Shown: positions 1 to 5,813 of the stretch, one piece after another | Layout of the letters: each line of letters opens with the position of its first letter | How positions within the stretch are numbered: position 1 is the stretch's first letter | NCBI GenBank assembly: GCA_020439605.1 | Contig: JAGQSI010000019.1 | Coordinates: forward strand, 1 to 13,617 | Source of the DNA: Acidimicrobiales bacterium | GTDB taxonomy: Bacteria; Actinomycetota; Acidimicrobiia; Acidimicrobiales; Iamiaceae | Length of the DNA stretch: 13,617 nt | Reading direction: 5' to 3' | Notes under the pieces: model-generated | Told to the model about the DNA's origin: nothing | The model's input: only the letters and a program-made list of their open reading frames with translations | The model's database searches: none | Program-made: the position numbers and the translations under genes

Positions 1-732
1 GACCGCCCACGGCACCGTTTCTGGATCTCCTGGGCCGTTTGAGAGAAACACACCGTGAGGATTGAGGCTCATCACCTCCTCTGCTGTTGTTCTTGCCGGC
101 ACAACCTCTACGGTCCCGAGCCCACCAAGATGGCGAAGGATCGTGGTCTTGATGCCAAAGTCATAGGCAACAATGCGCAGCGGACCCTCGCCGACGCTGT
201 ATCGCTCAGGAGTGGTTACCTGACTCACCAGGTCTACCCCTGCGGTTCCTGGCTCGGCGCGCGCTGCTTCGAGAAGCGAAGCCTCATCAACCTTGGTTCC
301 ATTGGGGGCCTCACCTACGATCCCGAAAGCGCCGGGCATCGCCCCGCTGTCTCTGATGTGGCGGGTGAGGCGGCGGGTGTCTATTCCACCGATACCCGCG
401 ATCGCGTGACGTACAAGCCAGCCGTCTAGATCCTCATCAGCACGCCAGTTTGATCTACGGCGAGCAAGATCTCGGACAATCACACCACGACAGTGCGGGC
501 GCTTGGCCTCGTTATCGGTTGGATTGACCCCGTAGTTACCGATATGGGGATAGGTGAAGGTGATGATCTGACCGGCGTAGGAGGGATCGGAAAGAACCTC
601 TTGGTATCCAGAGAGCACGGTGTTGAACACAACCTCGCCGGTGGCGATGCCCCCATCGGCAACGGCGCCGAGTGCTTCACCCTCGAACACGGTTCCGTCG
701 CTGAGCACGAGTAGAGCTTCTCTAACGCTCAC
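1..732 (-). CDS. carA: Carbamoyl-phosphate synthase small (glutaminase) chain, 5' part
   Basis: CarA hydrolyses glutamine and passes ammonia to CarB, making carbamoyl phosphate for pyrimidine and arginine synthesis in the cytoplasm. The 244 visible codons hold the whole N-terminal small-chain domain ([20 protein letters not shown] near residue 33, then [41 protein letters not shown]) and the beginning of the class I glutaminase domain ([25 protein letters not shown]). The Cys-His-Glu triad lies beyond the left edge, so the gene is cut by the window and not broken. The start is GTG at 732-730. It overlaps the TGA of a 27-codon leader ORF as GTGA, with GGGGGA eight bases upstream. carA is split from pyrC by an opposing dehydrogenase gene and has its own PyrR-type leader. 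Family assignment is firm; translational coupling to the leader peptide is inferred. Confidence 0.96.
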
Positions 733-812
733 TTGGCTGTCCCCCTATTGGAACTCTGGGCAAAAAGAAAGCCCCCGTTTGGGGGCCCCAGCGCAACAGT
801 GGATTGTGTCAT
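729..812 (-). CDS. carA leader peptide (27 aa) spanning the attenuator hairpin
   Basis: This short ORF begins with ATG at 812-810 and ends with TGA at 731-729, overlapping the carA GTG by four bases. It has a good Shine-Dalgarno, AGGAG at 823-819, six bases before the ATG; two bases of it belong to the 3' foot of the PyrR-binding loop. The peptide starts MTQSTVALG, continues PPNGG at residues 10-14 and ends NRGTAK. The five PPNGG codons are the GC hairpin of the attenuator, and the next codons (TTT CTT TTT) are its U-tract. PyrR itself carries PPYGG at exactly residues 10-14. No function is likely for the peptide as such; I infer that the act of translating it controls the hairpin and reloads ribosomes at carA. 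Translation is not proven by sequence alone. Confidence 0.7.
762..786 (-). terminator. Intrinsic terminator / attenuator in the carA leader
   Basis: Read on the minus strand, GCCCCC (786-781), loop AAAC, GGGGGC (776-771) forms a six-pair all-GC stem followed directly by TTTCTTTTT (770-762). This is the classic form of an intrinsic terminator. It lies between the PyrR-binding loop and the carA start, as an attenuator should, and inside the leader peptide frame (codons 10-17). Confidence 0.85.
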
Positions 813-821
813 CGCGATCTC

Positions 822-860
822 CTGTCCGTGTGAGCCTCACTGGACCCACTTCACGGTCAG
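822..860 (-). promoter_or_regulatory. PyrR-binding RNA loop of the carA leader
   Basis: The 39-nt element folds as a lower stem CTG-A-CCGTG with CACGG-A-CAG (eight pairs around an A-A mismatch), a 5'-side AAG bulge, a four-pair upper stem TGGG/CTCA and the ten-base loop TCCAGTGAGG. The loop with its flanking stem bases closely matches the known PyrR recognition sequence (UCCAGAGAGGCU type). The same element lies before pyrR at 4644-4682. In the PyrR family, binding is enhanced by UMP. Here the 3' foot touches the leader peptide ribosome site, so binding should hide it. Confidence 0.92.
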
Positions 861-866
861 ACGTGG

Positions 867-872
867 AGGTTA
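867..872 (-). promoter_or_regulatory. Candidate -10 box of the carA leader promoter
   Basis: TAACCT on the minus strand fits the actinobacterial TANNNT -10 pattern and ends six bases before the PyrR loop. The pyrR leader has TAGTTT at exactly the same distance. Transcription would start at or just before the first base of the loop. No convincing -35 box was seen. Confidence 0.45.
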
Positions 873-4062: not shown

Positions 4063-4628
4063 CGGACCATCTCACCGAGGTCTACGCCGTCATCGGTCAC
4101 GTCCACCACTTCGTCTCGCCGGGTCGGCAGATTTTTACCGACATAATCCGGCCGGATCGGCAACTCGCGGTGGCCCCGATCAACCATTACCGCCAACTGC
4201 ACAGCACGTGGGCGCCCGTAATCGCTCAGGGCGTTGAGAGCCGCACGAATAGTTCTGCCGGTAAAGAGCACATCATCACACAACACCACCGTCTGGCCGT
4301 CGAGAGACCAGGGAATATCGGTTACCGCTTCAGGCAGCACTGGCCTCAAGCCGATGTCGTCACGATAGAAGGCTACGTCGAGGGTCCCAACCGGGAGTTC
4401 TTCTCGGGGTTCGATACCCACTAGAGCCTTGGCGAGCGAGTGCGAAAGTGCGACTCCACCGGTTTGAAGACCGATCAGAATCAGTCCATCGAGACCATGG
4501 TTGGCCTCGATTATCTCGTGGGCCATTCTCCACACTGCACGTTGGATGTCCTCGCCATCCATTACCCGGGTACGGGGCGCGAAAACGCCCCCGTATGGGG
4601 GCGCTTGGCGTCTCTCACGTTCGGCCAT
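4059..4628 (-). CDS. pyrR: PyrR, pyrimidine operon RNA-binding regulator / uracil phosphoribosyltransferase
   Basis: PyrR binds pyr leader RNA when UMP is high and lowers expression; many members also make UMP from uracil and PRPP. In the 189 residues the type I phosphoribosyltransferase core is clear: AHEIIEANHG (36-45), LIGLQTGGV (51-59), the PRPP loop VVLCDDVLFTGRTIRAAL (114-131) and the RGHRELPIRPDYVGKNLPT segment (151-169). The first about 20 residues precede the conserved core and include PPYGG at 10-14, encoded by a GC hairpin. The ATG at 4628 is preferred because AAGGAG lies nine bases upstream, whereas the alternative Met23 has no ribosome site and would cut the first core strand. 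Mycobacterial PyrR proteins, as I recall, also carry an N-terminal extension. It is the first gene of pyrR-pyrB-pyrC and overlaps pyrB by four bases. Confidence 0.95.
   Translation of the reverse strand: MAERERRQAPPYGGVFAPRTRVMDGEDIQRAVWRMAHEIIEANHGLDGLILIGLQTGGVALSHSLAKALVGIEPREELPVGTLDVAFYRDDIGLRPVLPEAVTDIPWSLDGQTVVLCDDVLFTGRTIRAALNALSDYGRPRAVQLAVMVDRGHRELPIRPDYVGKNLPTRRDEVVDVTDDGVDLGEMVR
4582..4603 (-). terminator. Terminator-like hairpin inside the 5' end of pyrR
   Basis: On the minus strand CGCCCCC (4603-4597), loop ATAC, GGGGGCG (4592-4586) makes a seven-pair GC stem followed by TTTT (4585-4582). It falls on codons 9-15 of pyrR, downstream of the PyrR-binding loop. The U-tract is short (TTTTCG), so it may terminate weakly without help. 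The carA leader has a near-identical hairpin at the same codon position. Confidence 0.6.
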
Positions 4629-4729: not shown

Positions 4730-5242
4730 CTATCTGAGTTTCTTGGCTATTGCCGAGAGCATCCCGTTGACGAAGGTGCCCGAATCGTCAGTCGAATAGC
4801 GCTTGGCGAGCTCTACCGCCTCGGAGATGCATGCTCCAACCGGTACATCGGTGTGACCCAGTTCGAACGCCGACATCCGCAGCAGTGCGCGATCCAACGC
4901 AGGCATGCGCTCAAGGGGCCAACGATGAGAGCACGAGGAGATCAATTCGTCGAGATCTTCAAGGTGGTCACTTACACCGACCACCAGAAATCTGGCGAAC
5001 TCCACCGGGGCGAGCGCGACATCATCAAGAACTGCGGCTAGCGGCAGAAGGGATTTCTGTTCGGCTTCATAAAGGAGGCTGAGAGCTCGTTCACGAGCCT
5101 CACGGCGAGTGCCGATCCCATCGAAACCCGAGGTTTTCGGTTCCGGCTGGGGCTCTTCTAGTTCCTCTATGGCTTCGACCACATCGCCGTCGTCGAGTTG
5201 CAGTTCTGGAGGAAGCAGAGTTGGGTCTATCGGATCTGGCAC
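4730..5242 (-). CDS. nusB: Transcription antitermination factor NusB
   Basis: NusB pairs with NusE (ribosomal protein S10) on boxA RNA to protect rRNA transcripts from premature termination. The helical NusB core begins at about residue 43 (TRREARERALSLLYEAEQ) and runs to the end. It includes ERMPALDRALLRMSAFEL, the PVGACISEAVELAKRY segment and the terminal GTFVNGMLSAIAKKL, all typical. The preceding about 40 residues are acidic and Pro/Glu-rich (for example EELEEPQPEP) and are not part of the usual fold. The frame is open to 5293, inside efp. The GTG at 5242-5240, ten bases past the efp stop, is the first sensible start and gives 170 residues; a shorter start is possible. There is a 101-base gap before pyrR that holds the pyr promoter and PyrR loop. 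Confidence 0.9.
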   Translation of the reverse strand: MPDPIDPTLLPPELQLDDGDVVEAIEELEEPQPEPKTSGFDGIGTRREARERALSLLYEAEQKSLLPLAAVLDDVALAPVEFARFLVVGVSDHLEDLDELISSCSHRWPLERMPALDRALLRMSAFELGHTDVPVGACISEAVELAKRYSTDDSGTFVNGMLSAIAKKLR

Positions 5243-5252
5243 AGCGAGAGCC

Positions 5253-5813
5253 CTAGGCCCGTGTGATGTACTCGCCGGTGCGAGTATCCACACGCAGCTT
5301 GTCGCCGATGTTTACGAACAGCGGCACCTGAATGACCTTGCCGGTCTCAAGCGTGGCCGGCTTACGTGCACCAGAGACACGATCTCCTTGGATTCCGGGC
5401 TCTGTTTCGGCCACGGTGAGCTCAACTGCCGCAGGAAGATCCACGCCCACGATCTCGTCGCCATACATCTGCAAGATGGCGCTGTCTGACTCACGCAGAT
5501 AGCTAGCGGCATCGCCTAGCGCTACGGGAGACACATTTAGTTGCTCGTAGCTCTCTGCGTCCATGAACACATAGTCCGTACCGTCGTTGTAGAGGTACTG
5601 CATGTCTCGCTTGTCGATCTTGGCCTGCTCAACCTTTTCGCCGGCACGGAAGGTCTTGTCGAGCTGGGACCCGGTCCTGACGTTGCGAAGCGTGGTGCGA
5701 ACAAAGGCGCCGCCCTTACCGGGCTTTACATGTTGAAACTCGACTACCTGATAGAGCCCTTCGGGAAGGTTGAGGCTCATTCCGTTCTTGAGGTCGTTAG
5801 TCGTGATTGCCAT
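5253..5813 (-). CDS. efp: Translation elongation factor P
   Basis: EF-P binds between the ribosomal P and E sites and rescues ribosomes stalled on polyproline stretches. The 186 residues are the standard length, with an N-terminal KOW-like domain followed by two OB domains. The tip loop HVKPGKGGAF (28-37) places Lys33 at the position that contacts the CCA end of the tRNA; it is the short Gly-Lys-Gly loop. The C-terminal domain ends with the characteristic GDKLRVDTRTGEYITRA. The ATG has GGAG eight bases upstream (CGGAGAAACGCA). It sits between the aminopeptidase gene and nusB in the order pepP-efp-nusB, which is common in Gram-positive bacteria. A link to the Pro-Pro codons at the pyrR and carA leaders is a speculation recorded among the findings. 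Confidence 0.98.
   Translation of the reverse strand: MAITTNDLKNGMSLNLPEGLYQVVEFQHVKPGKGGAFVRTTLRNVRTGSQLDKTFRAGEKVEQAKIDKRDMQYLYNDGTDYVFMDAESYEQLNVSPVALGDAASYLRESDSAILQMYGDEIVGVDLPAAVELTVAETEPGIQGDRVSGARKPATLETGKVIQVPLFVNIGDKLRVDTRTGEYITRA

Follow-up and report, generated by a model that had tools for sequence, protein, structure and literature searches.

A candidate PyrR-controlled, ribosome-gated transcription attenuator preceding carA and lying within pyrR in Acidimicrobiales bacteria

Two PyrR leaders in one stretch of DNA

The window analyzed here is a stretch of 13,617 nt (GenBank assembly GCA_020439605.1, contig JAGQSI010000019.1) from an Acidimicrobiales bacterium of the family Iamiaceae, a member of a little-studied group. 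Its minus strand carries carA for the carbamoyl phosphate synthase small subunit (1-732, cut by the window end; NCBIfam TIGR01368, E 7e-74) and pyrR (4628-4059, with an ATG at 4628; NF003549, E 3e-61). Downstream from pyrR are pyrB for aspartate carbamoyltransferase (4062-3076; NF002032) and then pyrC for dihydroorotase (3107-1791; TIGR00857, above its cut-off), all on the same strand. A short-chain dehydrogenase gene lies between pyrC and carA on the plus strand (943-1758), and its opposite orientation may explain why carA has a leader of its own here. Directly upstream of pyrR on the minus strand (4730-5813) are nusB and, judged by eye, an EF-P-like gene. That genes for antitermination and for the translation of Pro-Pro adjoin a Pro-Pro-coding attenuator is probably a coincidence.

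The carA leader, on the minus strand, begins with a TANNNT element resembling a -10 box (TAACCT, 872-867) that is located six bases 5' of a predicted PyrR-binding loop, CUGACCGUGAAGUGGGUCCAGUGAGGCUCACACGGACAG (860-822). The loop is indicated by a sub-threshold Rfam match and by folding, and its helices covary in the alignment A2 described below. An AGGAG ribosome site (823-819) shares two bases with the loop foot, and six bases past it an ATG (812-810) opens a leader ORF of 27 codons plus TGA (812-729). Within this ORF is a putative terminator hairpin of six G-C pairs (786-771, or 789-768 if G-U pairs are included), followed by the U-tract UUUCUUUUU (770-762), which codes for Phe-Leu-Phe. The leader TGA (731-729) overlaps the carA GTG (732-730) to form GTGA (732-729). 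The initial annotation had described the loop, the AGGAG in its foot and the ATG six bases on, and these were confirmed to the base; its 27-codon frame through the terminator, with a stop overlapping carA as GTGA, likewise holds at the positions given here. In addition, carA has its own AGGGGG (746-741), which resembles a ribosome site and counts against the model proposed below.

When folded alone, the carA-leader loop forms the expected two-helix PyrR structure (-15.1 kcal/mol), although 12 of 200 shuffles fold as well; for the hairpin, three of 200 shuffles do. By number of pairs, this hairpin tops the 12 terminator-like sites in the 13.6 kb (nine pairs versus at most eight elsewhere), where 9.5 such sites are expected by chance. 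The fold of the whole leader is no more stable than its shuffles (z -0.32), so fold energy alone proves nothing and comparative evidence must carry the case.

The Rfam model for PyrR elements, RF00515, aligns to positions 860-762 and has no other match in the window at E values up to 1. The score of 32.6 bits (E 0.28) is below the gathering cutoff of 54, and at E 0.001 the model matches nothing in the genome from which the window comes. Thermus composti served as a control for that genome search. In a separate control, the model accepts two leaders from Bacillus and one from Paenibacillus. Because RF00515 is blank in the source genome at this cutoff, a covariance model (R1) was built from the leaders of relatives. 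The features of an RF00515-type structure are nevertheless present in the carA leader, namely a two-helix loop, a UCCAGNGAGG-type core, and a purine bulge (a GAA bulge, UCCAGUGAGGCU).

A second leader precedes pyrR on the minus strand (4694-4582), and its terminator lies inside the pyrR reading frame, a point that the initial annotation had overlooked. Here the TANNNT element (TAGTTT, 4694-4689) again sits six bases 5' of the loop (4682-4644, predicted from sequence and folding), and the AAGGAG ribosome site of pyrR (4643-4638) adjoins the loop foot. The putative terminator hairpin, GCGCCCCC AUAC GGGGGCGU (4604-4585), occupies pyrR codons 9-15. It is identified by folding, by the codon bias of relatives and by an even sample of the order. 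At -16.9 kcal/mol it is matched by none of 200 shuffles. Its U-tract (UUUU, 4585-4582) is short, and this too counts against the model.

The hairpin codes for Pro-Pro-Tyr-Gly-Gly-Val-Phe, and its codon register, CCC CCA nAC GGG GGC, is identical in the pyrR and carA leaders. PyrR residues 1-19 precede the part of the protein that aligns to solved PyrR structures (the alignment starts at residue 20 or 21), which places the terminator in an N-terminal extension.

Leader peptides before carA in relatives

A PyrR-loop motif is found within 200 nt 5' of carA at only three of 70 loci (the window, L062, and L064), and at most of the others the end of pyrC appears by eye to be directly upstream. Within the window's family, 21 of 24 genomes match the R1 model. 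A separate carA leader is present in 13 of the 24, one of which has two, giving 14 leaders. Start codons were picked by a rule that is blind to reading frame. Nonetheless, no stop codon interrupts any of the 14 frames before the end of the hairpin, and each frame ends at the apparent start of carA (as ATGA, GTGA, or TTGA). The initial annotation had looked to relatives for a shared leader frame, hairpin, and stop-start overlap, all of which are kept in the 14 leaders. It had named broken leader frames beside an intact loop and hairpin as the contrary case, and the family has none (0 of 14).

The 14 ORFs differ in length: five have 22 codons, two have 23, one has 24, three have 27, one has 28, and two have 31. 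Gly-Gly occupies codons 13-14 in every one of them, and Pro-Pro occupies codons 10-11 in nine, in each case the same place as in pyrR (for example, the leader peptide MAQPTSSPTPPAGGFSFAREAVA beside the PyrR start MAERERRLTPPYGGVFVAR). From these shared places we infer that the carA leader arose as a copy of the 5' end of pyrR. A genome of a more distant family (G019, locus L207) has a PyrR loop and an ATG before carA, with a different hairpin, no U-tract, and no matching stop. The palindrome after the loop at this locus is long and near-perfect, TGCATGTTCGTGCAC...GTGCATGAACATGCA.

Codons of pyrR that build a hairpin

To survey the order, 148 genomes were drawn evenly from it. PyrR was found in 139 and 138 pyrR starts were used, the remaining one (G326) being cut at a contig end. 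A recognizable PyrR loop core precedes 132 of the 138 and is missing from six. A hairpin was called terminator-like if its energy was -8.5 kcal/mol or lower, if at least four T residues followed in the next eight bases, and if it lay no more than 115 nt past the core. By this rule, 86 of the 132 loop-bearing leaders (of 138 pyrR genes) have such a hairpin, and in all 86 it is inside the open pyrR frame; five shuffles of the sample gave only 3 to 8 per 132. The 46 loop-bearing leaders that have no hairpin by the rule include all four sampled genomes of one group (f2) and three of four from another (f5), as well as near misses such as G378, where the stem is intact and the tail is poor in U. The in-gene pyrR terminator is therefore common in the order, but far from universal.

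The TANNNT element is also placed with regularity. Among relatives, 70 of 98 pyrR leaders have it exactly 27 nt 5' of the loop core, and 94 of the 101 occurrences within the 60 nt before the core fall at 25-29 nt. This placement suggests a transcription start at the loop or beside it.

For codon choice we turned to close relatives: 111 pyrR loci, taken from the best 80 of 543 in a GTDB scan and the best 30 of the even-sample search. Once a duplicate of the window (L031) and 11 further identical sequences had been taken out, 99 distinct starts remained, in a set that is biased to near kin. Of the 80 titles in the GTDB scan, 47 refer to Acidimicrobiales, Acidimicrobiia, Acidimicrobiaceae, or Microthrix and most others give only the phylum; three labels read Bifidobacterium breve and one Acidobacteria, and these seem to belong to mislabelled MAGs. 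A helix of at least five pairs, at -9 kcal/mol or better, forms from codons 8-16 in 90 of the 99 starts. At least five T residues occur in the nine nucleotides of codons 15-17 in 82, and both traits are combined in 76.

Because a Pro-Pro/Gly-Gly protein motif could make a hairpin by itself, synonymous codon choice was examined. Thr9 is ACG in 66 of 77 close relatives (20% in the rest of pyrR), and Gly13 is GGG in 76 of 99 (22%). Past the stem the preference turns to U: Val15 is GTT in 69 of 90 and Val17 in 58 of 76 (6% elsewhere in both cases), and Phe16 is TTT in 42 of 98 (10%). The control position Val22 is GTT in only four of 85. Mean hairpin energy across the 99 starts is -16.0 kcal/mol for the natural sequences versus -10.7 kcal/mol after synonymous recoding. 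Taken gene by gene, as-stable versions make up at most 5% of the recoded sequences in 42 of 99 starts and more than 50% in 11. Codon 15 is GTT in 68 of 90 starts with the hairpin versus one of nine without it (Fisher p 0.0002, relatedness ignored). In the 48-sequence alignment A2, two-sided changes occur in 12 of 22 pairs (four of eight in the hairpin), which exceeds all 500 shuffles (0 of 500 as high) and all slid versions; related sequences are not independent events. The bias indicates that synonymous codons in close relatives are bent to build the pyrR terminator, and thus that codons are selected at the RNA level.

Stalling at Pro-Pro was considered as a gate and set aside, since 21 of the 99 close relatives have Arg-Pro. 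At three loci (L071, L076, and L083), an out-of-frame short ORF can be seen by eye upstream of pyrR. It runs from the loop foot to a TGA within the first codons of pyrR, in TTGGCTGA or ATGGCTGA, which gives the impression that a separate leader re-arose before the fused form.

The codon data bear on the possibility that regulation is purely translational, as in mycobacteria. PyrR would then hide the ribosome site of the leader, and hence affect the coupled carA, or would hide that of pyrR. The hairpin would not terminate transcription, and would be either a by-product of the Pro-Pro-x-Gly-Gly motif or an aid to initiation or mRNA stability. Such a mechanism agrees with a loop foot that overlaps or adjoins the ribosome site in both leaders and with the 46 of 132 order leaders that have a loop and no hairpin by the rule. 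It also gains from the ease with which Pro-Pro and Gly-Gly codons form hairpins in G+C-rich genomes, as the recoded mean of -10.7 kcal/mol illustrates. However, neither the protein nor a plain hairpin accounts for codons bent to U after the stem (Val15 GTT in 69 of 90 against 6%). Hairpin and U codons moreover vanish together, and the carA leaders of the family keep the hairpin although their peptide differs. We consider purely translational repression to be unlikely.

Search for an antiterminator

In a classical switch of the Bacillus type, an antiterminator would preclude the terminator as well as the PyrR loop, and the reading frame would be open only incidentally. Several features are compatible with such a switch. 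The loop core is the same and a terminator lies downstream; RF00515 aligns, if weakly (32.6 bits), to the whole stretch; and the spacing between loop and hairpin (33-40 nt) is little shorter than in Bacillus velezensis (about 47 nt).

When leaders were folded only as far as the 3' arm of the terminator (n=48), the probability that the 5' arm pairs with the loop region averaged 0.08 and exceeded 0.5 in three, but the antiterminator of B. velezensis likewise went unseen. Loop and terminator were held together in 36 of 48 complete leaders, by the same folding that missed the B. velezensis antiterminator. Raw duplexes are no less strong in these leaders (median energy -13.3) than in Bacillus (-9.9). 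Given how weak the folding and duplex tests proved against this control, shared complementary runs were counted instead.

No helix of at least five pairs between the loop and the 5' side of the terminator is common to more than 11 of 48 leaders at one alignment place, a count that leaves aside helices whose position shifts. By the same count, the loop is formed in 48 of 48 leaders and the terminator in 42 of 48, and two B. velezensis leaders show runs of six and ten pairs. The pyrR leader of the window has no alternative loop-terminator helix of at least five pairs. Its carA leader has a seven-pair match, which might be taken to favor the Bacillus type, between the loop and positions 793-787; this touches only the outer G-U pairs of the hairpin. 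In these leaders, then, a conserved antiterminator was not found, in line with the initial annotation, which had seen none by eye, and a Bacillus-type exclusion of loop and terminator by a helix at a fixed place does not appear to operate. Together with a leader frame and stop overlap that are kept in 14 of 14 carA leaders, this makes a Bacillus-type switch very unlikely.

Leaders beyond the order

With stricter filters, the model matches 109 of 118 order genomes, 84 of 148 class genomes, and 81 of 296 phylum genomes. We read 72 loci outside the window's order, from 52 of the 61 genomes beyond the order that matched in the phylum scan and 20 of 50 in the class scan, mostly the better-scoring ones. 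Three of the 72 had no recognizable core, leaving 69; L273, L274, L298, and L299 were excluded for weak energy or tail. By the rule, a terminator-like hairpin is present at 50 of the 69 loci, and 47 of the 50 have a start codon (L257, L275, and L286 have none by rule). In 40 of these 47 leaders the chosen frame stays open to the end of the hairpin, compared with 26 and 33 for the two shifted frames; in the other seven it closes earlier. At L243 the frame ends inside the hairpin.

Eight of the 47 leaders are fused in frame to the gene. Among the 39 that are unfused, 17 have a stop no more than 4 nt from an in-frame gene start, versus one and three in the shifted frames. The entire arrangement of loop, start, terminator in an open frame, and stop on the pyrR start occurs at many of the loci, including L230 and L249 (ATGA), L234 and L268 (GTGA), and L246 and L279 (TGATG). 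In other orders of the class, leader and pyrR make up one continuous frame that contains the hairpin (L288, L289, and L293-L297). Four loci (L253, L255, L262, and L281) have no hairpin by rule and look purely translational. A plasmid PyrR search supplied controls from Collinsella, Nonomuraea, Microbacterium, Bacillus, and Paenibacillus, and by eye the Nonomuraea and Microbacterium leaders also have a purely translational look.

Some matches were of other kinds. A search of the 296 genomes with the short pattern GTCCAGHGAGGC was abandoned because its reversed-pattern control was of similar size among the matches listed, and its loci (L001-L030) were discarded. Some weak model matches (L161/L205, L204, L206, and L218) correspond to neither pyrR nor carA. 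At L250 (G449), a PyrR-like loop is followed by a short ORF that ends, by eye, just before a carB-like start, with no terminator by rule. In another class (L244, L269, and L271), the leader TGA overlaps what looks by eye like a CTG start of pyrR. Upstream of pyrR in Collinsella aerofaciens (L307) is a diverged loop-like hairpin with an ATG in its foot and a frame that stays open to a run of seven T residues; the usual PyrR core is missing there, and the locus has no Rfam match.

A proposed ribosome-gated mechanism

The explanation that we consider best, and likely to be correct, is a transcription attenuator that is controlled by PyrR and gated by the ribosome. It builds on what the sequences display directly: the anatomy of the leaders, their conservation, the keeping of the frame, codon selection at the RNA level, and the lack of a shared antiterminator helix. 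When UMP is present, PyrR would hold the loop. The ribosome site is in the loop foot or next to it, and the first codons would stay untranslated. The hairpin could then form, and RNA polymerase would terminate ahead of carA; on the pyrR copy it would do so inside pyrR, without reaching pyrB and pyrC. When UMP is absent, a ribosome would load at once, its footprint would cover the hairpin, and transcription would continue. The translated stretch would be a disposable 27-codon leader before carA and the N-terminus of PyrR itself before pyrR. On the carA leader, the ribosome would finish on the carA start and could restart there, which would add translational coupling. For pyrR, the attenuator would amount to autoregulation that also sets the genes behind it.

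The strongest logical support for this mechanism comes from pyrR. PyrR must be made despite the terminator inside its own gene, so something must open that terminator, and the ribosome is the only evident agent.

The strongest objection comes from Escherichia coli. Terminators in the first 100 nt of ORFs are about 100% efficient in this organism (Li et al. 2015), according to excerpts of a review that gives as the reason that transcription there runs ahead of the ribosome (PMC7858274). The hairpins described here start 23-26 nt past the start codon. These data argue against ribosome gating being easy, and the model consequently needs polymerase pausing. Excerpts of the same review state that polymerase tends to pause within the first 100 nt (PMC7858274), and a NusA-stabilized pause at the Bacillus subtilis pyr attenuators is noted in excerpts of another paper (PMC7430163).

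The initial annotation had read the carA leader as a hybrid in which termination and the masking of a ribosome site are joined, and the relatives support this view of the architecture. The steps that involve UMP, PyrR, the ribosome, and termination are those we infer, namely promoter activity, PyrR-UMP binding, termination, ribosome gating, and reinitiation.

Gating might instead follow the E. coli pyrBI pattern, where the signal would be UTP-sensitive pausing of polymerase 5' of the hairpin, acting in place of PyrR or beside it. A leader ORF that passes through the terminator, as in pyrBI, speaks for this possibility. However, no run of more than two U residues occurs between the loop start and the hairpin of the carA leader, and the PyrR loop is conserved and covaries, which renders a pyrBI-type signal highly improbable. 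Least probable is a hairpin that always terminates part of the transcripts, free of regulation, and so keeps basal expression low while PyrR acts only on translation. The high efficiency of early in-gene terminators in E. coli (excerpts of PMC7858274) favors this possibility, but most pyr transcripts would be wasted permanently, and it would be left unexplained why the leader frame crosses the hairpin and reaches the carA start in 14 of 14 leaders.

Relation to known PyrR and pyr attenuators

The principle proposed here is not new. Van de Casteele et al., writing in J Bacteriol in 1997, reportedly proposed the same logic for the pyr operon of Thermus strain ZO5: control by PyrR, no antiterminator, and a translating ribosome that prevents formation of the terminator hairpin. 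The elements reported for that scheme, which are a loop, a translated stretch through the terminator, and no antiterminator, are all found here at the level of sequence. Thermus belongs to a different phylum. We know of no terminator inside pyrR, and of no second copy before carA, in Thermus ZO5.

In the E. coli pyrBI operon, a leader ORF also runs through the terminator and the ribosome keeps the terminator open, with UTP-dependent pausing as the sensor. That system has no PyrR loop, whereas the carA leader of the window does not have the U-rich pause region (its longest U-run between loop start and hairpin is two).

The literature consulted contains no description that we found of a combined PyrR, ribosome, and terminator architecture in Actinomycetota. 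It includes excerpts of PMC2965389, PMC4347634, PMC4833913, PMC3766115, PMC7858274, PMC3416667, and PMC7430163; subscription papers fall mostly outside it, which makes this weak evidence of novelty. What appears to be new is the placing of a terminator within the coding sequence of pyrR, together with the spread of the arrangement over Actinomycetota. It is possible, although we would stop just short of calling it probable, that the ribosome-gated PyrR attenuator is an old form across deep lineages of Actinomycetota. By this account, the leader peptide became fused to PyrR in Acidimicrobiia, so that the N-terminus of the protein is the attenuator; the carA leader derives from a copy of the 5' end of pyrR; and loss of the hairpin gave rise to the purely translational repression of mycobacteria.

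If the mechanism is correct, an N-terminal protein extension gains a regulatory reason at the RNA level, and these leaders would offer a clean way of learning whether a ribosome can hold off an intrinsic terminator that begins a mere 24 nt or so inside a gene, a possibility that the E. coli data speak against. Our findings also suggest that terminator surveys confined to untranslated leaders would miss such switches.

The leaders stand between two systems in their anatomy. Fields and Switzer are said to have reported in 2007 that PyrR of Mycobacterium smegmatis represses translation through a loop next to a ribosome site, with no terminator, the last point being made in the initial annotation too. 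The ribosome site in or at the loop foot is found here as well (AGGAG at 823-819 overlaps the foot and AAGGAG at 4643-4638 adjoins it), but both leaders of the window have a hairpin and U-tract. With the B. subtilis pyr attenuators, as described in excerpts of PMC7430163, they share the PyrR loop core UCCAGNGAGG, a PyrR homolog, and an intrinsic terminator. In B. subtilis, however, an antiterminator excludes loop and terminator (PMC7430163, excerpts), whereas here there is no shared antiterminator helix and the terminator is in a reading frame. If the proposed mechanism holds, these leaders would be a natural intermediate linking two PyrR mechanisms that are taught as separate, termination in Firmicutes and the block of translation in mycobacteria.
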